Assembly: GCF_036417845.1 (NCBI RefSeq)
Contig: NC_089979.1
Coordinates: 118,081,415 to 118,145,414, forward strand
DNA from: Apteryx mantelli
Lineage: Eukaryota > Chordata > Aves > Apterygiformes > Apterygidae
DNA: 64,000 bases
Direction: 5' to 3'
Part shown: positions 26,001-61,664 of the stretch, piece by piece
Layout: each line of letters starts with the position of its first letter
How positions within the stretch are numbered: position 1 is the first letter of the stretch
Notes under the pieces: generated by a model
Databases searched by the model: none
Seen by the model: the letters and a program-made list of their open reading frames with translations, nothing else
What the model was told of the DNA's origin: nothing
Position numbers and translations under genes: made by a program

Positions 26001-26562
26001 GACAGTTGTTTCTTAAAAAATGCTATCTGGCAGTGATTATGTTGAATGTGATTCTAGACAGTATTGGAAGCTTTAGTAAGTAAAAATATATATATATATA
26101 TCAACAACTCAAATATTTAGAGACTTAAAACCTCAACAGTATCTTAAAAGAAAAAAAAGCTAGCTTATTCAGAATGGCATTGTAATTTTGGAGAATAATC
26201 CATCTATCCTAATCCAGATACCATAGGTTTTTTTGGTTTTTAACATCTTTAGTGAAGCTTGATCAGTTTCTCCTTGTGACAAATTTTGCCGTGTTTGAGG
26301 TTTTCATTGGCAAGTATTACCTTTGAATCAACTACATAAAACATAATTTTTCTTTTGGGAAAAAGAAAATGTTTTAATGATCCCTTCAGTGTAGCATTGC
26401 TGTAGGCTACAGTAAAGAGTTCAACTGTACAGTTTGTGAATACTAACCAAGTGAATTTCTGGCTTAAATTTTCAGATGAAATTATTGAACCTCTACATTA
26501 AACGTGCACAAACAGGCTCTGGACCAGGGGATGCAACAGCAGATGTATCTGGACAAAGCTAA
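1926..26562 (+). CDS. CLASP2: CLASP2, C-terminal 584 residues in 12 exons (5' end outside window)
   Basis: CLASP2 is a CLIP-associating protein that binds microtubule plus ends, promotes rescue, and acts at the cell cortex, Golgi and kinetochores. Twelve GT-AG exons join in phase to 1755 bases (584 codons plus stop). Residues 1-177 of this part are helical repeats of a TOG domain (VFSMFLETLVDF, KVAILKYIETL, AAQSVLISLFELN). Residues 178-340 form a Ser/Pro-rich linker (SPLTRPTPRSP, SPLTSPTNTSQ, DYNPYNYSDS). Residues 345-575 are the C-terminal TOG-like domain that binds CLIPs and other partners (HSDLVAELLKEL, IRALALKVLREI, SSVRKACVFCLVAIH). The protein ends SGQS. CLASP2 is preferred over CLASP1 because the linker and C-terminus match the human CLASP2 sequence I remember, and because UBP1 lies next to it. 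The N-terminal TOG domains and the SxIP EB-binding motifs must lie upstream. Confidence 0.95.
2090..3240 (+). other. CLASP2: CLASP2 intron
   Basis: The intron runs from a GTAATG donor to a TTTCACAG acceptor. It is AT-rich with T-runs. No repeat family or RNA gene was seen. Confidence 0.8.
3241..3319 (+). CDS. CLASP2: CLASP2 exon b (TOG)
   Basis: The exon is 79 bases long, between TTTCACAG and GTAAGA. The first base completes Arg55, followed by 26 codons beginning ESFPNDLQFSILMRF and ending TPSLK in phase 0. It belongs to the TOG domain. Confidence 0.95.
3320..8431 (+). other. CLASP2: CLASP2 intron, 5.1 kb
   Basis: This is a long AT-rich intron with a GTAAGA donor and a TTTGCAG acceptor. Short open frames on both strands resemble nothing known. 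No CR1 3' end, RNA gene or conserved exon was recognised. Confidence 0.75.
8432..8575 (+). CDS. CLASP2: CLASP2 exon c (TOG)
   Basis: The exon has 144 bases, exactly 48 codons, phase 0 at both ends, between TTTGCAG and GTATGT. It encodes VKVAILKYIETLAQQMDPGD through SETRLAVSRIITWTTEPK to SSDVRK. It holds TOG-domain helices and the loops between them. Confidence 0.95.
8576..12478 (+). other. CLASP2: CLASP2 intron, 3.9 kb
   Basis: The intron runs from a GTATGT donor to a TCCTGTAG acceptor. It contains long T-runs at 9037-9055 (19 T) and 10392-10415 (24 T) and a G-rich patch near 11697-11713. The longest reverse open frame (9054-9425) has no recognisable domain. Confidence 0.75.
12479..12622 (+). 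CDS. CLASP2: CLASP2 exon d (end of TOG)
   Basis: The exon has 144 bases, 48 codons, phase 0 at both ends. It encodes AAQSVLISLFELNTPEFTML followed by LGALPKTFQDGATKLLHNHL and RNTGNSGQ. It closes the TOG domain. The reading frame stays open for about 26 codons into the intron, so intron retention would add a short unrelated tail. Confidence 0.95.
12623..13090 (+). other. CLASP2: CLASP2 intron
   Basis: A short 468-base intron with a GTATTT donor and a CTCCTCCAG acceptor. It contains G-rich patches at 12665-12688 and around 12740. Nothing else was seen. Confidence 0.8.
13091..13197 (+). CDS. CLASP2: CLASP2 exon e (Ser/Pro linker)
   Basis: The exon has 107 bases, phase 0 in and two bases out (AG, completing a Ser with the next exon). 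It encodes GSMGSPLTRPTPRSP, then SWSSPLTSPTNTSQNTLSP. This is a flexible linker with several SP and TP sites of the kind phosphorylated by proline-directed kinases; specific use of these sites is inference. Confidence 0.94.
13198..14036 (+). other. CLASP2: CLASP2 intron
   Basis: The intron runs from a GTAACG donor to a CCCACAG acceptor. It is mixed composition with no recognised element. Confidence 0.8.
14037..14190 (+). CDS. CLASP2: CLASP2 exon f (linker)
   Basis: The exon has 154 bases between CCCACAG and GTGAGT. The first base completes Ser213, then 51 codons encode AFDYDTENMNSEDIYSSLRG, VTEAIQNFSFRSQEDMNEPV and KRDSKKDDGDS. The sequence is acidic and strongly conserved with remembered mammalian CLASP2. 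Confidence 0.95.
14191..14943 (+). other. CLASP2: CLASP2 intron
   Basis: An AT-rich 753-base intron with a GTGAGT donor and a CTCCTGCAG acceptor. It has a 15-base T-run at 14729-14743. No other element was seen. Confidence 0.8.
14944..15172 (+). CDS. CLASP2: CLASP2 exon g (variable linker)
   Basis: The exon has 229 bases between CTGCAG and GTAAGC, phase 0 in and one base out. The first half (ICSASGIVDLRAGSGVSDTG) differs clearly from remembered human CLASP2. The second half (HSSPRSRDYNPYNYSDSI then FNKSALKEAMFDDDAEQFPD) is nearly identical. The site read as ISPF in human is ISSF here, removing one Ser-Pro pair. The frame runs on into the intron for 47 codons. Confidence 0.93.
18190..18456 (-). 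mobile_element. Decayed CR1 LINE reverse-transcriptase fragment
   Basis: The minus strand reads VLGLVLFDAFVND, then an AVAKVLENRTRIQKDLDK stretch, then KVNNDKCKARH. This is a degraded version of the CR1 pol segment containing the VLGPVLFNIFIND, IQRDLDRLEKWA and KFNKGKCKVLH blocks. The FADD catalytic block that should lie between them is not preserved. The copy is truncated at both ends and clearly inactive. The opposite-strand DNA resembles the old CR1/L3-type repeat common in sauropsids. Boundaries are approximate. Confidence 0.7.
18685..18858 (+). mobile_element. CR1 LINE 3' end (5'-truncated copy)
   Basis: The sequence begins GCACTGGAACAGGTTGCCCA, passes through GGTTGGACTAGATGATCTCC and CCTTCCAACC, and ends in two copies of the ATTCTGTG octamer at 18843-18858. 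This is the diagnostic 3' UTR and terminus of avian-type CR1 elements, in the + orientation. About 175 bases survive, as is usual for 5'-truncated CR1 copies. It is the best evidence in the window for a bird or close reptile. Confidence 0.93.
20839..21032 (+). CDS. CLASP2: CLASP2 exon h (start of C-terminal domain)
   Basis: The exon has 194 bases between TTTAACAG and GTAAAT. Its first two bases complete Glu341, then PPMDHSDLVAELLKELSNHN, ERVEERKAALYELMKLTQEE and SFGVWDEHFKTILLLLLETL follow, ending GDKE in phase 0. It opens the C-terminal helical domain that in mammals binds CLIP-170 and other partners. Confidence 0.95.
21033..21903 (+). other. CLASP2: CLASP2 intron
   Basis: An AT-rich 871-base intron with a GTAAAT donor and an AATCTTTAG acceptor. 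There is a T-run near 21730. No repeat family was seen. Confidence 0.8.
21904..22032 (+). CDS. CLASP2: CLASP2 exon i (C-terminal domain)
   Basis: The exon has 129 bases, 43 codons, phase 0 at both ends, between CTTTAG and GTTAGT. It encodes HAIRALALKVLREILRNQPA, RFKNYAELTIMKTLEAHKDP and HKE. These are TOG-like helices. Confidence 0.95.
22033..23929 (+). other. CLASP2: CLASP2 intron with 10-base tandem repeat
   Basis: The intron has a GTTAGT donor and a TTTCAACAG acceptor. A 10-base unit GTTAATAAAG is repeated about four times with small changes at 22178-22216. C-rich tracts lie near 22813-22830 and 22944-22951. No other element was identified. Confidence 0.8.
22178..22216 (+). repeat. 10-base tandem repeat (GTTAATAAAG)
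   Basis: Units start at 22178 (GTTAATAAAG), 22188 (GTTAATTAGA) and 22198 (GTTAATAAAG), with a further imperfect unit from 22207. It is a small local duplication inside a CLASP2 intron. Confidence 0.85.
23930..24136 (+). CDS. CLASP2: CLASP2 exon j (C-terminal domain)
   Basis: The exon has 207 bases, 69 codons, phase 0 at both ends, between TTCAACAG and GTAAAA. It encodes VVRSAEEAASMLATSISPDQ, CIKVLCPIIQTADYPINLAA, IKMQTKVIERVSKETLTQLL and PEIVPGLIQ. It forms the central helices of the C-terminal TOG-like domain. Confidence 0.95.
24137..25217 (+). other. CLASP2: CLASP2 intron
   Basis: A 1081-base intron with a GTAAAA donor and a TTTCTAG acceptor. It has a G-rich patch at about 24485-24515 and another at 24690-24750. 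No named element was recognised. Confidence 0.8.
25218..25334 (+). CDS. CLASP2: CLASP2 exon k (C-terminal domain)
   Basis: The exon has 117 bases, 39 codons, phase 0 at both ends, between TTTCTAG and GTAAGT. It encodes GYDNSESSVRKACVFCLVAI then HAVIGDELKPHLSQLTGSK. The SSVRKACVFCL helix is a strong CLASP signature. Confidence 0.96.
25335..26475 (+). other. CLASP2: CLASP2 last intron
   Basis: The intron runs from a GTAAGT donor to an ATTTTCAG acceptor. It contains short AT dinucleotide tracts (near 25636-25650 and 26086-26101) and a C-rich tract at 25898-25917. No gene was seen. Confidence 0.8.
26476..26562 (+). CDS. CLASP2: CLASP2 terminal coding exon and stop
   Basis: After ATTTTCAG the exon encodes MKLLNLYIKRAQTGSGPGDA then TADVSGQS and stops at TAA 26560-26562. 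The C-terminal tail matches remembered CLASP2 (TGSG...DVSGQS), with small changes in the middle. It continues into the 3' UTR without a break. Confidence 0.96.
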   Translation: MKLLNLYIKRAQTGSGPGDATADVSGQS

Positions 26563-26786: not shown

Positions 26787-28620
26787 ATTTAAAAATAATC
26801 TAATCCATTAGTTTTCCTGTTCGCAATCCTCTGTGTCTTCCCATTAACTTTTGCCAGTGTTACTGTATTAAAATTTTTTTTAATGCTAATTAAACAGGTA
26901 TGCTTTAAGCTTCAGAAGTTAAAATATAAATTCTGTTGCTTTCATTCAGCTGCAGATAACATTGTTTTTATTGCTATTTTGTTTGAGTATCATGTCCTTT
27001 GCTAGAAACAAGAAGTGATGTGAAACAAGGCAGGTCTAGTCTGAACTGCAGTGAGACTCAGTCACTGTGTTGGTGGTTCATCTTATTTACAGCTTGTTTG
27101 GGATATTCTGGAGATTGAGAAATATGCCTATAAAAAAAGCTGGATTGATCCAGTTCTGTAAAAGTGATATTGTTCATTGGTTGTATGTTTGTTGCATAAA
27201 TAAGAATTTAGTGTGAACAGTAGAGGACTAGTACAACTAGTACCTCCTAATGTGGAAGACAGCCCTTTCAGGGTAGCATTGCCGAACTGGTGATAGTGTG
27301 GCAGTCTGCTTTTTAGCAGCAGAGTTAATGGTCACTTGATGGATGTGAACCATCCTTGTCACCTTTCGTTCTTCAAGCAGGATGCTTCAGACTGGAGTGC
27401 TCTGCCCAAGCATGCTCAGTATGTATTTATCTTTATCACTAGAATGTTTCCTCTCAACCTAATTGCTGGAACCAGTAGTCTTGTATTGTAACTCACATGG
27501 GATTTTATGACAACAGTGCAGAAAACAACTTACTCGTTACCTTCCTAAAAGCACCAAGGTTTTCTGCATTGAAGTTAAATGGGAGGGAGGGGGAATAGTC
27601 ACAAATGCTATGGATCTTGCCACCTTTTAATTTAAAAAGTATATATTTTGGATGAGTTGGGAAAGCTGCACCAAACTACTTGCATGGTTTTCTTGAATAG
27701 CATCCTCAAGACCCATCTGGATTAAGGTGTGGAAATGTTTCCAGGGTTTGTTTTTCCATTTTTTGAAAGAGAGTTAGTTTATTGTGAATAATGGTTCTTT
27801 GTATTTATGAACTTGATAAGGGAAAGAGAGAACAAAAATCAAGTAAATGTGTCCCTAAATGTTGTCTTTTTCTTCTTTTTCTTTCTTTTTTTATTTTTTG
27901 GTCTTGGATATAAGCAACAAGCTAATTAACTGAGAACTGGGATGAAATAGACCCTTCCTAGGAATGGTGGAACTTTTTTTTTTTTCTTTGACTGTGATGT
28001 TGTCTAGTTATAGAAAGTGTATCCTGATAAGAGAGAAAATAGCGGTGCCAAGGATGATGATCTATGCTAGGCTAAAATTCTCTCTACCTCTTCAGGGTGA
28101 CTAATTTTTGAATGAGCTGCTGCCTATAGCACCCAGTGGAAGAACTATCTACAGAAATTCTTCTTTATTTCTTTTTTTTTCAAATTACCACTTAATGTGT
28201 ATTCAAAACTCTATTCTTCAACATGCAGCCAAATATCCTAAGAAACTACTTACACACTTTACTTACTAGATACCCTGAAAAACAAAACTGAATAAAAATG
28301 AAGTCAGATGCTTGTAGTTACATGAAAGGTTGTTTTCACTTCAGTTTGAAGTGAATCTGATAGAAAAAGTTGAGATATGGTTGTTAAAAAAACAATGTCG
28401 TTGCAGAGATTTATTCTATTGGAGGAAAAGTTGTAGAAACATAGGTAAAGACTTAAAACAAGACTGTCATAACTTGTCACTAGCCCTTTTTAGCAGCTAC
28501 ATCAGGAAAATAGTATCTCCTCTTTCTTTCCTTTGTTATATGTAACATTCTTGTTGTTTTCTACTGTTTAATTACATTGTGTATTTATAGTTCTATGCTT
28601 ACCATTGTGCATATACTGGC

Positions 28621-34600: not shown

Positions 34601-36564
34601 ACTTTCCTGTGCCTTGTGTGCGAGAACGTACAGGAAGCCTGCATTGCCACAGCAGAAACTGTGAATCCAAATACTGATATTTAGGCTACTAACTAGGTGC
34701 ACAGCAAGCATGGCATAGCAGGATAACAAACACTTGGAAGTGTCCACCTCTATAGACATCTGACTCTTCTACAAAAGAGCTACTCCATTCTTTGCTACAG
34801 CCATAAAGACCTGGTAACTTAAGTTTTGAACTCGGGTATGATGTGATTAATTAAATCTAAAGAAAATTTCTCTGAACAGTGTTACTGTCTAAACCTCTTT
34901 AATGACTACAAATGATCTCCATCTGACAGTTTTCTGTATAGGCCAGAAAGCATTTTTAAAAAGAGGCAGAGGAAAGCAAAGATAATGGCCACCATACCTG
35001 CATCTCATAGCAGAGATGTGAAATTGGTCAATACCTCAACACCCTAATCAGATCCTCTTTGATTTAGTAGGTTATATGAGGAATAGGACTATGGAAGAAG
35101 AGATTAGAGCAGTAACACCCTGCAAAGGAGGCTTTCAGCTGTGGAGGTCACCATTCCCCAATAAGGTGGCAGAACCTATGAGGAAAGAAGCGTTTCCTGC
35201 ATTGGTCAGACAAAACCAAACCTAAGTTTTTTGTAAACTGACCCTTGAGCATTGGAAGCAATCCATATTTCTCATTGTGTATAAAGTTACTTCACTTCTT
35301 TGCCTCATATCAAGCAAACTCTGAAGCAAGTCCAAACACCAGGTGTGCTAAATGTCTAATGCATCTCACCGAAGTGGTCTGAAGAAACTGTTGAATTATT
35401 CAGCGTGCTCAACATTGTCGCATGTCAAGTGGAATGCCATTCTGCTGAGATGCCTTATGATGCATTGTCATATCTCTGCTGTTGATGTCCTAAGACTTCC
35501 ACTGGAATTTGGTGGTCTACCACCAAAGTAAGGTGTTCCTTATGGTTCTTCCTGCTTTGCTCCCCCCTACCCCCACCCCAGTCCTGCTTCTCAAGAGTCT
35601 TGAGTGTCACAGAGGAAGGACTGGTAAGTGTAGCTGTCCTTACAGTGCTTAAATGTAAACAGACCCAGATTAGGATGTCTAAAACCACCCTGTGATCCAG
35701 AATAAAGATGGCAGGTGCACCTGAGGAAGATGAACACATTACTGCTTATCTTTCACTGGATAAAACTGACAAGGTGTGTTACCGTTTTCAGACTGTCCTC
35801 TAGCGACTTGTGCCACCTTCGGATGACCTGACATAGGAATAAGGATTATGTTGTGTCCTGTCTAACATGTCAGGAGTTGTGTGATCAGAACTGCAGGCTA
35901 CCCTGGAACCACGGTGAGGGATCATGTGTAGGAGTTTCTTGCTCGTGATTGTAACCTGTCAGTGCTTAAGTTCATAGTAACAGCAGCAAAGAGTCCAGTC
36001 CCACTAACAGAATGCATATATGGGAGAGACTGCGGTCATGCATTCAGAAGTACACACGCAGAAGAGCTAGAAATAAGATTCAGCACTTCCCACCTCAATG
36101 TATGATGGATTCACAGCCAGTGAAAGCAGGGAGTATCATCTAAACATGAATACCAGACTGATACTTAGCGATTCAGGTAAACTGGGTCACTGATGTCCAC
36201 TTTGACAGGTGTTTCCAAAGTTACCCCGCATTTGGCAGCAATTGTTGACACAACCAAAAAGAGTCCAAAGAACAAACAAGACAGATCGAAGCAACACTGC
36301 TTTCTCTTCTCTATGCTCTGTTTTGGGTTTGAAGCATATAGGCATTGTTCCTGCTTATATATAAACCTGTCTTCTGCTTTTAAATTGAACTAGCATTTTA
36401 AGTACAGCTAAAAACCATCACTTGACAGCAAAACTTATTTTGAACAAATTCTTCAGAATATATCATAGTTTGTGACCAAGTTTATAATGTCTTGTATGGT
36501 TTGTGATTGAGTTTTTCCATGTGTTTTCTGCAGAATGATTTTTACTTGCCAAAAAACAAAGCCG

Positions 36565-39912: not shown

Positions 39913-40359
39913 CAAGCGGTTTGCTGGAGGTTCAGTTTCATCTAAATGGTAGCCACCAATGGATGCAGCAACTGGGAGATAATTGGTAACTTGAGAGAGA
40001 AACTTTCAAAATCAAATGCAAAGAAAATTACATTAAGAAAGGCTTTCTGGCCTAAAGAGTAAATAGTTTCCCTGTGGTTGGACAGCGTTTTCATTTTTTT
40101 CTAATCTTTGTTAATGGCAAGAAAGCAACTAGAAAGAATAATATTACACTATGTAGTAACCTGCCCCTTGATCAGGTGTAGATAACGAACAGAAAAAAGG
40201 GATGCAGTGCAAACGCTACTGAGAAGGCATTTTGCTTGCCTCAGAGGTCACTGTATATTTTTCCCCCCTCTCCTTTTCTTTACTCTTGATTCATATCTAT
40301 GCAGGTTATATCCAAGTGTCCAAGTACTTCAGTGGACTGCCTGAAGAAAGGACCAAATG

Positions 40360-40680
40360 CCTCTCCGAGGTGGAAGTGCTTATGAAACTGTTCTTCCTCC
40401 TGCCTCTGCAACACGCAGCCCCTTATTTGGGGCCACTGGGGCAGCAGCAGCTCTGCGCAGTGGCCCTGGCAGTGGGGAAGGGCGGGCAGGCGATACATGG
40501 GGCGATGGATGCTGCTGGGGTCTGGGCCGTGCCTGGTGTCAGGGCAGCCAGTGATAATGCCTCGCAGCGGGGCAGCAGCTGGGGCAGAGGGAGGCAGGGG
40601 AGCAGGTGGGAACCTGCCAAGGCTTGAGCCATCTGCCTCTCTTGGAGACTTGGCGGCAGCAGCTAAATCTAAAGGTGTGA
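40360..40680 (+). other. GC-rich segment upstream of the alternative UBP1 exon
   Basis: This local GC-rich island sits in AT-rich surroundings and is rich in CAG, CTG and GGCAG. It may be part of a promoter or 5' UTR of the upstream UBP1 transcript. A 131-codon open frame crossing it (40232-40627) resembles no known protein and is not called. A CRE, CCAAT or TATA element was not seen in it. Confidence 0.35.
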
Positions 40681-40750
40681 GAGGAAAACAACTGCAGCCT
40701 TAATCTGAATGTGTGTTTGTTTTTTCTTTCCTCTTTCCCCATCACTGCAG

Positions 40751-40867
40751 TGACCATCTCACAGTTGAGCACAACGCCTCATCTCATCCCAAAATGCTTT
40801 TCTGGCACAGCCAGCCTGAACATTATCACCATCACCAGTATCCCACCACTAGCAGCAGCTACCTGCG
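40751..40867 (+). CDS. UBP1: UBP1 alternative first coding exon with TFCP2L1-type N-terminus
   Basis: The exon is bounded by a good acceptor (TTTCCCCATCACTGCAG, ending 40750) or an unspliced upstream start, and by a GTAAGA donor at 40868. The only ATG is at 40794 with A at -3. It encodes 24 residues, MLFWHSQPEHY, a His-rich stretch, then SSSYL, plus two bases (CG). Joined to UBP1 exon 2 at 56614 these make Arg and read [16 protein letters not shown]. From memory the TFCP2L1 N-terminus is MLFWHTQPEHY...[16 protein letters not shown], so both sequence and splice phase agree. The coding part is 40794-40867. The product would lack the 37-residue MAWVLK...GAYSM segment of canonical UBP1. An in-frame stop at 40701 limits any upstream extension if unspliced. 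Whether it is expressed cannot be seen from DNA. Confidence 0.85.
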
Positions 40868-43800
40868 GTAAGAAATGAATGATTGCAGGTGATTTTAAAT
40901 AATAATTGTAATTTATATATATATATATATGCATGCACATACACACAAGAATGTAGAATACACAGATTTTGCTACTTCACAAGCTCAAGCCTTCAAACAG
41001 AGCTGCTGATCTTAGATCCTTTAAGAAAAGGTTGAGCACTAGAGTCACCGTAGTGGAGATTTATTTTGCCATAGCTTCATGATTTTCACAAACTATGTCA
41101 CCATACATGCGTGTGAGTAACAGCAATGGAAATGTTTTACTGCTTAATATGATATTCGCAGAGATGTTAACTTATGTTTTTTTTCTTTCAAATTCCATGT
41201 GCAGCCTTTAGGTAAAACTGTTTATATCAAGTAATACAGAGTCACAACATCTCAGTGCTTCGTTAGTACTATGAAAAGTGCATTTTATTTACTGAAGCTC
41301 AGTTGATGTGCAGTATCAGAAATATGAGCTGCTTTGTACTGTCAGTCCAGACACACCAGTTAACCACATTTTGCATTGAAATTCTGATGCAATATGTAGT
41401 TTATTGCATCATCATATCCCTATGAGCTATGAACTTACTTTCTCTTCATGGCTAAAATATTATTTGGCTGGTATTCAAATTTTTCTTATAATTAAAAATG
41501 ATTATGTTTTGACAAGAGCTAAGATGAGTTCAGAGCTTCCAGCTAATCTTGACATTAAAATCTCAATTTATAATGTGATTCAATCTCTGTATTAAACTTT
41601 AACTGAATACTTTTTGGCTAAAAACAATGTGTGTAAACATGATACAGTGTTTAATAATCTACCTTGATATGGGTTGTTTGTTGGTAAAGTCTCATACTAA
41701 GTACTGTATTACAGTATTACTTCTGCTCTTGTAGAACTGTTGAGTAGGATGCTGTTATTAGAAATATGTTAATGGCTTTAGGTTTTAAAAAGCAGTAAGG
41801 CTGTATTTGGGTTCTGATGAACTAAAACGTGAAATTAATGAAATTTTGCAGTGGAGTTTATATGACCAAGCCATTTCAATACAAAGGTCAGGGTGATCTG
41901 AAACTTAGATTGGCTAACACGACTATGTAGCAAACATACTGGTGTATTTAGTGACCCAGACAGTGAACCAGAAAGGACGGATGGGTGCTGCAGCTCCCTG
42001 GTGCAATCCCATTCGGTTGCAAGTAACGCGCACAATTCTGAGCACAGAAGGGATCAAACTGCGAGGGAACACGAGCGCATCCGCTCACTTCTCCGCTCCA
42101 TGCTGCTTCAGCCGCTGTTCAGCCCAGAGGAGTGTCCCCCCCCCCGCAGCTTTCCGTAGGGCCATGCTCTCTCAGCGCTTGTTTTCACTGTCTTGTCTTT
42201 CTCCACTGCTCCCTGTATTTGCTTCTGTGTTTCCCCATCCCACTCTCATCTCAAGTGCTGCCATTCAAACAAGTCCCTCTGAAGTCACTCTTCCTCCAAA
42301 GTTTCGAGCACGTGCCTTTAGGTTTGGGTGGCAGCATGCACCTGTGTTTTGATATGAAATACGGTGCTGGGGAGATACTTCCATAAATTAAGGGTTGCGT
42401 ATAGGAGCTGAAAAATTGGTGCTTGAGGCTGACTACCAAAAGCAGAAAGGAAAAAAAAATAGTTAGGCAAGAGGCTTCAATCTGGTCATAATCATCGAGC
42501 TGCTTGACTCTGTCAGATCCTTAGGGAAGTGCTACGCCTCCATTCCACATCTGGATGTCAATAAGGTTTATATAGAAACGGCAGTCAACTTCAGGGGGTG
42601 ATGCCAGCCAGTGTTAGTGTAGAGCAGATGGAGCCAGGAGCGTATCAGGATCCCTTCTTCTCTCCTTCTCCCACATCCCAGTAAAACTATACTTAAAATA
42701 TGTCTGTGCAGATACCTTTTCAAAATTGGTCTCCTGCTACATACACATGCTTTCTCAGTCATAAATTATATTTTGGGGATTTGGGCCCAGGGTAGAGACT
42801 CTGATCAAGCCCTTCTTGGGAATGTAGGTGGAAGGCAGAGTTGCCTGAGGATTCCCACTGGTGTTAAGTGAGAGACTGGCTCTGAAGTCCTGAGCCCTGC
42901 TCAGATGGTAACAGGGCATGTGCAGAACTGGACTGGCAGGCCACAGTGAATATTATCTATTACAAGTTAGGCCTGTGAATTTGACATGCTCAGAGGGTTA
43001 GAGAAGCAATCTGAGGTCTCAAAATGCTTATTTACTTAAGTCTTGTCTTAGACAGTCACACTAGGTAGGTGGAAAGCTTTTAACACATTTTATATAGGCA
43101 AAAATTTGGAGGGAGCCAGGAGGAAGTATCATTCCATACAGCACACAGTCTGCTCTGTCCCATTACCTCTGCTCTCAGCTTTTACTGATCAGCAAATATT
43201 TAGAATTTAGGCACAAATTCTGCAATCTGATCCTTCCAAAAAATTCATGTGACTACTTGTGGGACTCTACATGGGGCTTATATTGCAAAAGTTGTAGAAT
43301 AGGAATTTTACTAGGAAAAAGGCATATAAAATGTACCACATGTGCATGGTATGTGGATTTTCAATGGTTCCTAATTGGTTAAACCCACTCCAGTTTTCTA
43401 TGAAATACAGGCAGCATCAAAAGTGCAACAATTTAAGTTTTCCAGTCAGGACTACCCATTGCTCATAAAAAGTAAGAATTTTATCTTTATAATAGGAACC
43501 TGTATAAGGCCAATATGGAAGTTGAACAAAAAATCATTCTGAAAGGTAAATTATGGTAAAACTAACAGAGATTAGGATTTTTTAAAAAGTAAGCTACAGG
43601 AGCAGCTGCCATTCTTGCTATCATCCAGAATGTCAACTGTAGGCATTAAAAAACCTGAGGCTAGTTTAAAAACTGAAAAATAGAAAAAAATTTTGTTTTC
43701 AAGATTTCTGCTTGTAAGCTTTTTCCATCTTAAGATATGTTGAACCTATTCTGCCAATAGTTGAGAACATGGCATCATAATTACAAGAACTAGAGATTTA

Positions 43801-47491: not shown

Positions 47492-47604
47492 ATGGCGTGG
47501 GTGCTGAAGATGGATGAAGTGATCGAGTCCGGGCTGGTGCACGACTTCGACGCCAGCCTCTCGGGCATCGGGCAGGAGCTGGGAGCCGGTGCCTACAGCA
47601 TGAG
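47492..47604 (+). CDS. UBP1: UBP1 canonical first coding exon
   Basis: UBP1 (LBP-1a/b) is a CP2/Grainyhead-like transcription factor that binds DNA as oligomers with TFCP2 relatives, acting in the nucleus. This exon encodes [20 protein letters not shown] then [17 protein letters not shown], matching remembered human UBP1 essentially residue for residue. The ATG has A at -3 and G at +4. The exon ends with two bases (AG) that make Ser38 with exon 2, followed by a GTACCC donor. It lies in the CpG island; the ATG itself sits in AAGATGGCG, a YY1-like sequence. TFCP2 differs here by an extra LPLA before DEVIESG, so UBP1 is favoured. The open frame continues into the intron to 47962 but is not coding there. 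Confidence 0.96.
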
Positions 47605-56613: not shown

Positions 56614-56765
56614 TGATGTTTTGGCACTGCCTATTTTCAAACAGGAAGATTCCAGCCTTCCACCAGAAAATGAGCCCAAACATCCGCCCTTTCAGTATGT
56701 TATGTGTGCTGCAACATCTCCAGCAGTAAAATTACATGATGAAACTCTTACATACTTGAACCAAG
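56614..56765 (+). CDS. UBP1: UBP1 exon 2 (start of CP2 domain)
   Basis: The exon has 152 bases between TTTTCAG and GTTGGT. The first base completes residue 38 (Ser from the canonical exon, Arg from the alternative one). It then encodes [40 protein letters not shown] and [10 protein letters not shown], ending with one base of Gly89. [17 protein letters not shown] begins the CP2 DNA-binding domain. The FKQE motif (Lys47) matches the sumoylation motif I recall at Lys30 of TFCP2L1. Sequence agrees closely with human UBP1 apart from a few residues in the [10 protein letters not shown] stretch. Confidence 0.96.
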
Positions 56766-59700: not shown

Positions 59701-61587
59701 TGAAGTGATGATGGCTGGTTGTTCAGGATTTGCAGGGTTCTTAGCATGTTAAAGATCTGTTAAATGAGTCCATTAAGATGATTTATCAGCTGTAGGACAG
59801 TGTTTTAAGCTGGCTGCTGTTCATCTGGATGCATGTGCTCAGATAACAGAAGTTGTATGGAAGAGAATTGCTTTTATGGGGAAGCATTTTTAGGTTTGTA
59901 AGTCCGGCTAGGCCAGCGGTTCTGTGAGGGCAAAGAGGATACTACGAGTCTTAAACAGTGGGAAATCCAAGAAAGAGTAGAGAAAGTAGCACATACACTG
60001 CACTCAGTATAGAGATGATTAAAACCAGTGCTGTAGTGCTTTTCATGCTTTCTGAGCAGGTACATGTTCAAAATTGGAGAACAGAAGGTAGCTCTCCAGG
60101 CTGTTTTTGTATTTTTACTGAGTCTGGTAGTCTTGATTTTTATCTTCATCAAATCCTCATTCTTAATACCATTTGGTACCTGTAAAAGGTTAGTAACACT
60201 TGTTGAACAAATAATCAGAAAGTTTTTGGTTTTTTTTCCCCTTTCAAAAAAACAGTAAAAGGGAACAGAGAGAAATATTTGAAAAAGCTTTACTATTAGG
60301 GCTAGATTTAAAAAAAATCTTCATGATATGGATAAATCTAGATGGACTTATATATATTGTCTCTATGTGTGTAGAATAATGCTGGTAACTGAACAAATCT
60401 CACTAACAGGAAAAAATGCTCTGTCCTGTTAAATATAAGGAAAAATGATCAGCTGCTTCAGAACTGTGTGTGTTCTACTCAGCTGCTCTGGGTACATTTG
60501 ATTTTTATATATTAATATTCAAATCCTGCTGGAGTAAAGAAGGCCTGTATATGCCTAGCATATATGTATACATACATATACATAAATGTGCTAATTTCAT
60601 TATAGCATTTTATGCTACATGATTAAAAAAAAAAATCTCCATAGTTGGACAGGAGGTAACGCCAGTCTCCGGAGCAATGAAAGGAGGAGTTGATGAGGAA
60701 ATCATTTTTGTCTTGCTTGTTCAGTGTGCCTTACAGGGATAAGTCAATTGGACCTTTACCTTGTAAGGCAAGCCAGTAAGTGTCTTTTCAGTGTAGCAAA
60801 TACTAGAGAGTAAAGAAAGTTTGGAAGGTAATATAGAAAGTAACGAATTCACTGCAATCAGTCTTGGTGAACTTCTTGAAATATATTTTGTCTTGTATCT
60901 TAATGAAGGAAAGATTGTTTTGACAATGAATATGTGCTGCTCAACCTAGGAGAAAAAAATTCTGTAGTTCAAATAAATTATTTCTAGCTTTCTCTCTATC
61001 AAAACAAAACAGTTAATCAAATTCACTAGAAAAACAAATTTACTATTGCCCATTTAAAAAAACCCTGGTAACTAGCTTTCTTAAAGTCTTATTTCTGAAA
61101 TCATAGCCTAAAAATCAAAGCCAGCAGATACTTGAGCAAAATTAAACATGGGAGAGTAGCATGAGTTGCTTGTATGAGCGGTATAAAAACTCATTTCTTG
61201 CAGTCAACATTGTTTCACAGGACCAGTCTCTGGTTCATTATATGTTGCCTTTCATCAGTTTCAAAAATAAAGGAACTCAACTTTTAAGATGATATTTTTT
61301 CAGAAATAAATAGCTATAGAAACAAGTAGTTACACTGCATGTAAAATGGAATACTTAAATTTTGGAAGTATCTATAGTTTTAAAGGGGCCAAAAAGTTTT
61401 GCTTCGTTGTTGCACTGATTCCTGTGCTGCGAAGTGAATGTTGTTATAAAAACCTCTTAAACAGAAGTTTCAGGTATTGATATTCTTGTGTACTGGATAA
61501 AAACCAAAAGCTAATTTGGGTGTGTTGAACACAAGATGGCTTTGTGCTTTGACTGTTCTATTGATACAATCCTTTTTGTCTTCAAAG
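56766..61587 (+). other. UBP1: UBP1 intron 2, 4.8 kb
   Basis: An AT-rich intron with a GTTGGT donor and a TCTTCAAAG acceptor. It holds C-rich tracts near 57196-57203 and 57676-57687 and several T-runs. No exon, RNA gene or named repeat was recognised. Confidence 0.8.
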
Positions 61588-61664
61588 GTCAGTCCTATGA
61601 AATACGGATGCTAGATAACCGGAAAGCTGGAGACATACCAGAAATCAATGGAAAATTGGTGAAG
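61588..61664 (+). CDS. UBP1: UBP1 exon 3 (CP2 domain)
   Basis: The exon has 77 bases between TTCAAAG and GTGAAC. The first two bases complete Gly89, then 25 codons encode [20 protein letters not shown] and GKLVK, ending in phase 0 at residue 114. It is part of the CP2/Grainyhead DNA-binding domain. The expected next block (SIIRVVFHDRR) is not found downstream in the window, so the gene continues past 64000. Confidence 0.96.

Follow-up and report, generated by a model that had tools for sequence, protein, structure and literature searches.

Alternative coding exons and a TFCP2L1-like N-terminus at the UBP1 locus of Apteryx mantelli

Coding exons at the CLASP2-UBP1 locus

The window, the whole stretch of 64,000 nucleotides of Apteryx mantelli DNA analysed here, contains the 3' end of CLASP2 followed by the 5' part of UBP1. 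The following features were located.

26473..26562, + strand: last coding exon of CLASP2 (...ADVSGQS), the upstream neighbour; ends at 26559, stop TAA at 26560 (tblastn with the CLASP2 C-terminus)
27129..27135, + strand: TATA-like TATAAAA, a possible core promoter for the alternative transcript (pattern scan)
27339..27418, + strand: alternative coding exon A, MDVNHPCHLSFFKQDASDWSALPKHA plus CA, donor GTATGT (tblastn, shuffle control, frame join)
40751..40867, + strand: alternative coding exon B, (T)DHLTVEHNASSHPK-MLFWHSQPEHYHHHQYPTTSSSYL plus CG (sequence, tblastn, frame join, shuffle control)
40794..40796, + strand: ATG, start of the short TFCP2L1-like form and an internal methionine in the form with exons A and B (models starting here include P0002, P0003, P0015 and P0016)
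47492..47604, + strand: canonical UBP1 first coding exon, MAWVLK...GAYSM plus AG (tblastn, sequence)
56614..56765, + strand: UBP1 exon 2 (...TYLNQ), common to the canonical and alternative forms, preceded by TTTTCAG
61588..61664, + strand: UBP1 exon 3, its start set by the acceptor AG at 61586-61587 and its end by the end of the tblastn match

A CpG island spanning roughly 46.0-48.0 kb contains the canonical first coding exon. That exon ends AG|GT, and its phase is identical to that of exon B. Exon 2 of the window encodes KLHDETL, which is also found in coelacanth and in the human protein; all six aligned bird rows have KLYDETL, a hint that the window comes from outside the bird groups in the alignment.

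In exon B, the ATG at 40794 opens 24 codons, MLFWHSQPEHYHHHQYPTTSSSYL, followed by CG|GTAAGA with the donor GT at 40868. The terminal CG and the first T of exon 2 create an arginine codon at the junction. The joined protein would carry MLFWHxQPEHY...SYLR directly before the exon 2 residues, as is typical of TFCP2L1. This frame, its donor and its phase into exon 2 had been described in the original prediction, and all three were confirmed in the sequence. The proposal that the protein would lose the MAWVLK...GAYSM segment is likewise supported.

The original prediction considered a chance match to the TFCP2L1 N-terminus unlikely. For both alternative exons, chance was gauged on 157 shuffled copies of the 64 kb window that preserved its dinucleotides. 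Residues 1-21 of human TFCP2L1 scored 37.4 bits at 40794-40868. The shuffles gave a best score of 25.0 and a mean of 18.2 bits, and none of the 157 reached the score of the window. Together with the conservation described below, this control rules out a chance open frame.

Splice signals were evaluated with a simple position-weight score whose weights were not fitted. The acceptor AG of exon B (40749-40750) ranks in roughly the top 1.0% of AGs across the window, and its donor (40868) in roughly the top 1.0% of GTs. An acceptor of this strength points to 40751-40867 being an internal exon of one or more transcript forms. The frame between this acceptor and the ATG at 40794 is open. Its residues are kept in birds (DHLLAEHN.S.HPK), and related residues are found in frog and shark. 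The composition around 40.7 kb does not indicate a CpG island; the interval 40501-41000 is GC-richer (0.48, CpG o/e 0.24). A GC-richer stretch immediately 5' of exon B, at 40223-40700, contains open frames of up to 139 codons on both strands, and the four tested had no match in Pfam. No Rfam match at the gathering score was found within the window.

Exon A lies 0.8 kb beyond the CLASP2 stop codon and joins position 40751 in frame. Several database isoforms begin with MDVNHPCHLSFFKQDASEWSALPKHAHDHLLAEHNASSHPKMLFWH or close to it. The first 26 residues of Rissa UBP1 isoform X4 match 27339-27416 at 96% identity (tblastn), and the residues that come next in isoforms of this type match the open frame that leads from the acceptor at 40750 to the ATG at 40794. 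The CA that ends exon A at 27418 and the first T of exon B at 40751 form the codon CAT, giving the same histidine as in the database proteins. A frog exon A peptide scored 42.7 bits at 27339-27416, compared to 22.3 bits for the best of the 157 shuffles. The GTATGT donor of exon A is weak, with 22% of the GTs in the window scoring equally high. Shortly before the exon A ATG, two AGs (27318 and 27321) rank in the top 5% of AGs, so that exon A might itself be internal, with the promoter elsewhere. The exon A region is CpG-poor. The TATA-like motif at 27129, 210 bases 5' of the exon A ATG, is only suggestive as a promoter sign.

Distribution and gene identity of the alternative N-terminus

The search query combined the N-terminus encoded by the window exons (residues 1-42) with human UBP1, and the search was by residues 1-42. 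Of 497 candidates, 127 proteins reached E<=1, and 120 of these 127 were listed. Carriers of the MLFWH type, mostly named UBP1 isoforms, are present in birds, coelacanth, frogs, bichir, sharks and chimaera, and an altered version is present in teleosts. The conservation in other birds anticipated for exon B is thus found in UBP1 models of birds, and of other vertebrates as well.

The 120 listed bodies, without the N-terminus, were compared by BLAST to three human references. TFCP2L1 was nearest for 65, UBP1 for 50 and TFCP2 for 5. The five assigned to TFCP2 are P0003 and P0008, which read as UBP1 carrying internal deletions, and three lamprey proteins, whose margins are 11-15 bits. The 50 UBP1-nearest bodies together with P0003 and P0008 make up 52 UBP1 clusters. 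Among the matches listed, the start motif M[LFS][FL]W[HQ] is found in 51 of these 52 (the exception is P0078, from Acipenser), and an arginine precedes DVLALP in 48. The H version of the motif occurs in 20 clusters, from birds, coelacanth, frogs, bichir, bamboo shark and chimaera; the Q version occurs in 31, from teleosts.

A body tree was built from 30 matches chosen across groups and the three human references (33 rows), leaving out the N-terminus. Columns filled in <30% of the rows were dropped, which should remove N-terminal residues left in three cartilaginous-fish rows. A split with support of 98/95 separates 16 UBP1 rows (15 from the database and human UBP1) from the other 17, namely 13 TFCP2L1 rows, three lamprey rows and human TFCP2. 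Twelve of the 13 TFCP2L1 rows group at 100/98; the lungfish TFCP2L1 row (P0086), on a long branch, is apart. The full-length isoforms homologous to the predicted protein therefore side with UBP1, not TFCP2L1. In the window, CLASP2 adjoins the gene, exon B is located upstream of exon 2 at 56614 and the phases agree. Locus, phase and tree all support the original assignment of exon B to UBP1. Two UBP1 models, P0020 from bamboo shark and P0003 from antbird, go under the name TFCP2-like 1, for which this N-terminus may be the reason.

The residues preceding MLFWH vary. UBP1 models from Coturnix, Willisornis, Latimeria and Pelodytes have MLFWH as their first residues. Among the matches listed, 7 of the 52 UBP1 clusters have the FFKQ motif of exon A (three bird, one frog, one bichir and two bamboo shark). 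Another leader is found in eight of the nine parrot clusters, the ninth (P0014) having exon A, and the Callorhinchus UBP1 model has yet another. Among the matches listed, 17 of the 31 teleost clusters begin at the motif and the remaining 14 carry different leaders. In searches with the exon A region, a bird query retrieved 5 of 5 candidates and no shark, and a shark query 4 of 4 and no bird. Detection of exon A is thus strongly query-dependent. A stretch similar to the parrot leader exon is found at 34893-34979 (E 0.005). It is followed by ATAATG in place of the needed GT donor, so it is unusable as a parrot leader exon in the window. The parrot leader exon may be lineage-specific.

No mammalian UBP1 with an MLFWH-type N-terminus is among the 120 listed matches, despite the many mammalian TFCP2L1 proteins there. 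The bodies of full-length bird UBP1 proteins share 87-89% identity with human UBP1, so a mammalian isoform would be expected as a separate 90% cluster, an expectation that applies to gene models and not to mammalian DNA. Likewise, none of the 120 listed matches is a gnathostome TFCP2 carrying this N-terminus. UBP1 from turtle, crocodile and snake was not seen among the cluster representatives and may be inside bird clusters.

Contrary to the original claim, the isoform is not hidden. It is already present in public gene models, with an MLFWH or MFFWH N-terminus in Coturnix X5, Rissa X4, Empidonax X1, Guaruba isoform 2, Latimeria X2 and Callorhinchus X3. These models are computed, and their leaders differ between groups (exon A, parrot, chimaera or none). 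In the open-access literature, which set the scope of the survey, we noticed no paper on an alternative UBP1 N-terminus. LBP-1a and LBP-1b are given as splice forms, and no N-terminal variant is named in the accessible portion of PMC9223585. In the portions available, a study of LSF/Grainyhead evolution (PMC2873413) does not mention an isoform or the N-terminus, a review (PMC6213935) does not mention isoforms, splicing or the N-terminus, and a chicken paper (PMC8369645) has nothing on N-terminal UBP1 isoforms. Mouse Ubp1 is among validated splicing switches, the exon being unspecified in the available text (PMC8892232). Two text hits were discarded on the passages available: MLFWH in PMC8769072 is a residue-group string different from the UBP1 peptide, and the 'alternative promoter' in PMC10761971 refers to ALK. 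The N-terminal peptide of CRTR-1 is stated to be absent from other CP2 family members (PMC2908540). As far as the matches listed go, this appears valid in mammals.

Compared to canonical MAWVLK UBP1 (LBP-1a/LBP-1b; mouse NF2d9/altNF2d9), the alternative form is alike in the gene, in exon 2 onwards and in the DNA-binding, SAM and C-terminal domains, but its N-terminal exon or exons are exchanged. TFCP2L1 (CRTR-1, LBP-9) has the MLFWHxQPEHY N-terminus at the corresponding protein junction; however, it is separate in the body tree, and exon A is absent from the TFCP2L1 N-termini listed. Ten of the mammalian TFCP2L1 models listed, platypus and opossum among them, contain an insert exactly at the R-D junction, a placement compatible with an intron at that point in TFCP2L1. 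Lamprey CP2 proteins (Lethenteron, Lampetra) also have MLFWH N-termini. In the tree, the lamprey rows group with TFCP2 and 12 TFCP2L1 rows at 93/87, and fall outside both.

Proposed transcripts and protein function

We consider it probable that exons A and B belong to an old second UBP1 transcription unit, in which the MAWVLK N-terminus is swapped for a TFCP2L1-like one. The positions of the exons suggest that UBP1 has two promoters. Transcription of the alternative form would start in CpG-poor sequence shortly after the 3' end of CLASP2, with the promoter probably around 27.1 kb, and might be restricted to certain tissues. Exon A (27339-27418) would be spliced to exon B (40751-40867), and exon B directly to exon 2 (56614), so that the MAWVLK exon in the CpG island is left out. 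The product would be UBP1 with MDVNHPC..FFKQDASDWSALPKHAH-DHLTVEHNASSHPK-MLFWHSQPEHY...SYLR instead of MAWVLK...GAYSM. Starts closer to exon B would produce a protein beginning at MLFWH, and other models do begin at the ATG at 40794.

The original prediction treated exon B as a first exon. The short models starting at MLFWH agree with this; the acceptor at 40749-40750 and the presence of exon A upstream in seven UBP1 clusters do not. Given the position of exon A, the likely promoter shifts upstream by about 13 kb relative to the original proposal. A possible but clearly less favoured arrangement is that exon B itself is the alternative first exon, with a promoter close to 40.7 kb, translation from the ATG at 40794 and exon A in a minor or separate transcript. 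It would account for the UBP1 models that begin exactly at MLFWH and is consistent with the same start in most TFCP2L1 models listed and with the GC-richer interval at 40501-41000. However, a first exon would not be expected to have an acceptor of such strength and in the right phase for exon A, nor an open frame before the ATG that is conserved in birds and related in frog and shark, and the composition at 40.7 kb is not that of a CpG island.

It is improbable that the alternative exons are a relic, kept by descent and spliced too rarely to matter. Mammals would seem to dispense with the exon, since the 120 listed matches include mammalian TFCP2L1 and no mammalian UBP1 carrier, and the donor of exon A is weak. 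A relic is expected to decay, but the exon B residues and the junction arginine persist in UBP1 models of shark, bichir, coelacanth, frog and birds, and are altered (MLFWQ) in teleosts. The names of the bamboo shark and antbird models would fit TFCP2L1 transcripts or mis-joined assemblies, but this reading is ruled out for practical purposes by exons A, B, MAWVLK and 2 following CLASP2 in one stretch, by the UBP1 position of the tested proteins in the body tree and by the UBP1 MRLEP exon in many of them.

The second transcription unit would leave the DNA-binding, SAM and C-terminal domains the same. The alternative N-terminus is located outside the DNA-binding domain: the Pfam CP2 domain covers residues 82-283 of P0011, and the match to the solved CP2 chain 8y7v begins at residue 91. 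In CP2c, disorder is expected for residues 1-65 (PMC9223585). The function of the alternative N-terminus can be read by homology from the CRTR-1 data in PMC2908540. Repression by CRTR-1 residues 1-52 could not be reproduced there, and repression was mapped to residues 48-200. This makes the alternative N-terminus more likely to be non-activating than itself repressive. The same paper concedes that an N-terminal activation domain may have been masked by the GAL4 fusion (PMC2908540). Promoter choice would thus most likely take away an activating tail and leave UBP1 as a modulator, with no repressor domain added.

The junction is also adjacent to a modification site. K30, the SUMO site of CRTR-1, corresponds to the FKQE lysine adjoining the junction (PMC2908540), and CP2c is SUMOylated at K50 (PMC9882985). 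We take K50 of CP2c to lie in the same motif. FFKQD in exon A resembles the SUMO motif of exon 2, suggesting a possible second SUMO site. It is not kept throughout, and both bamboo shark clusters have FFKQG.

Evolutionary origin and implications

UBP1 contains both N-terminal types in the window, and TFCP2L1 and the lamprey proteins contain the MLFWH type. The N-terminus of human TFCP2 is of the MAW type. The N-terminus search selects the MLFWH type and is silent on the MAW type in TFCP2L1. The simplest reading of these sequences would be one ancestral gene with both exons, followed by losses. The original prediction had placed both exons in the common ancestor of the three genes. The two types in UBP1 and the MLFWH type in TFCP2L1 and lampreys are in line with this; a gnathostome TFCP2 carrier is lacking among the 120 listed matches.

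There is perhaps an even chance that the CP2 gene of the vertebrate ancestor was transcribed from two promoters, giving an activating MAW N-terminus from one and a non-activating MLFWH N-terminus from the other. Once the gene had duplicated, TFCP2 would have kept the first and TFCP2L1 the second, and UBP1 would have kept both in fishes, frogs and sauropsids. Mammalian UBP1 would have lost the second, making TFCP2L1 the sole carrier left. If this is true, UBP1 outside mammals would be an activator/modulator switch in one gene, and some roles of TFCP2L1 in mammals would be common to UBP1 elsewhere.

According to the gene models and the window, non-mammalian UBP1 also encodes the front end printed as a hallmark of TFCP2L1, which is the peptide used to raise a CRTR-1 antibody (PMC2908540). 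This bears on the specificity of antibodies and on naming, as in the bamboo shark and antbird UBP1 models called TFCP2-like 1. It also bears on how roles were divided among the three paralogous factors after duplication, and on carrying TFCP2L1 biology over between mammals and birds or fish. UBP1 offers a clean test case of a gene that may exchange an activating tail for a neutral one via promoter choice.
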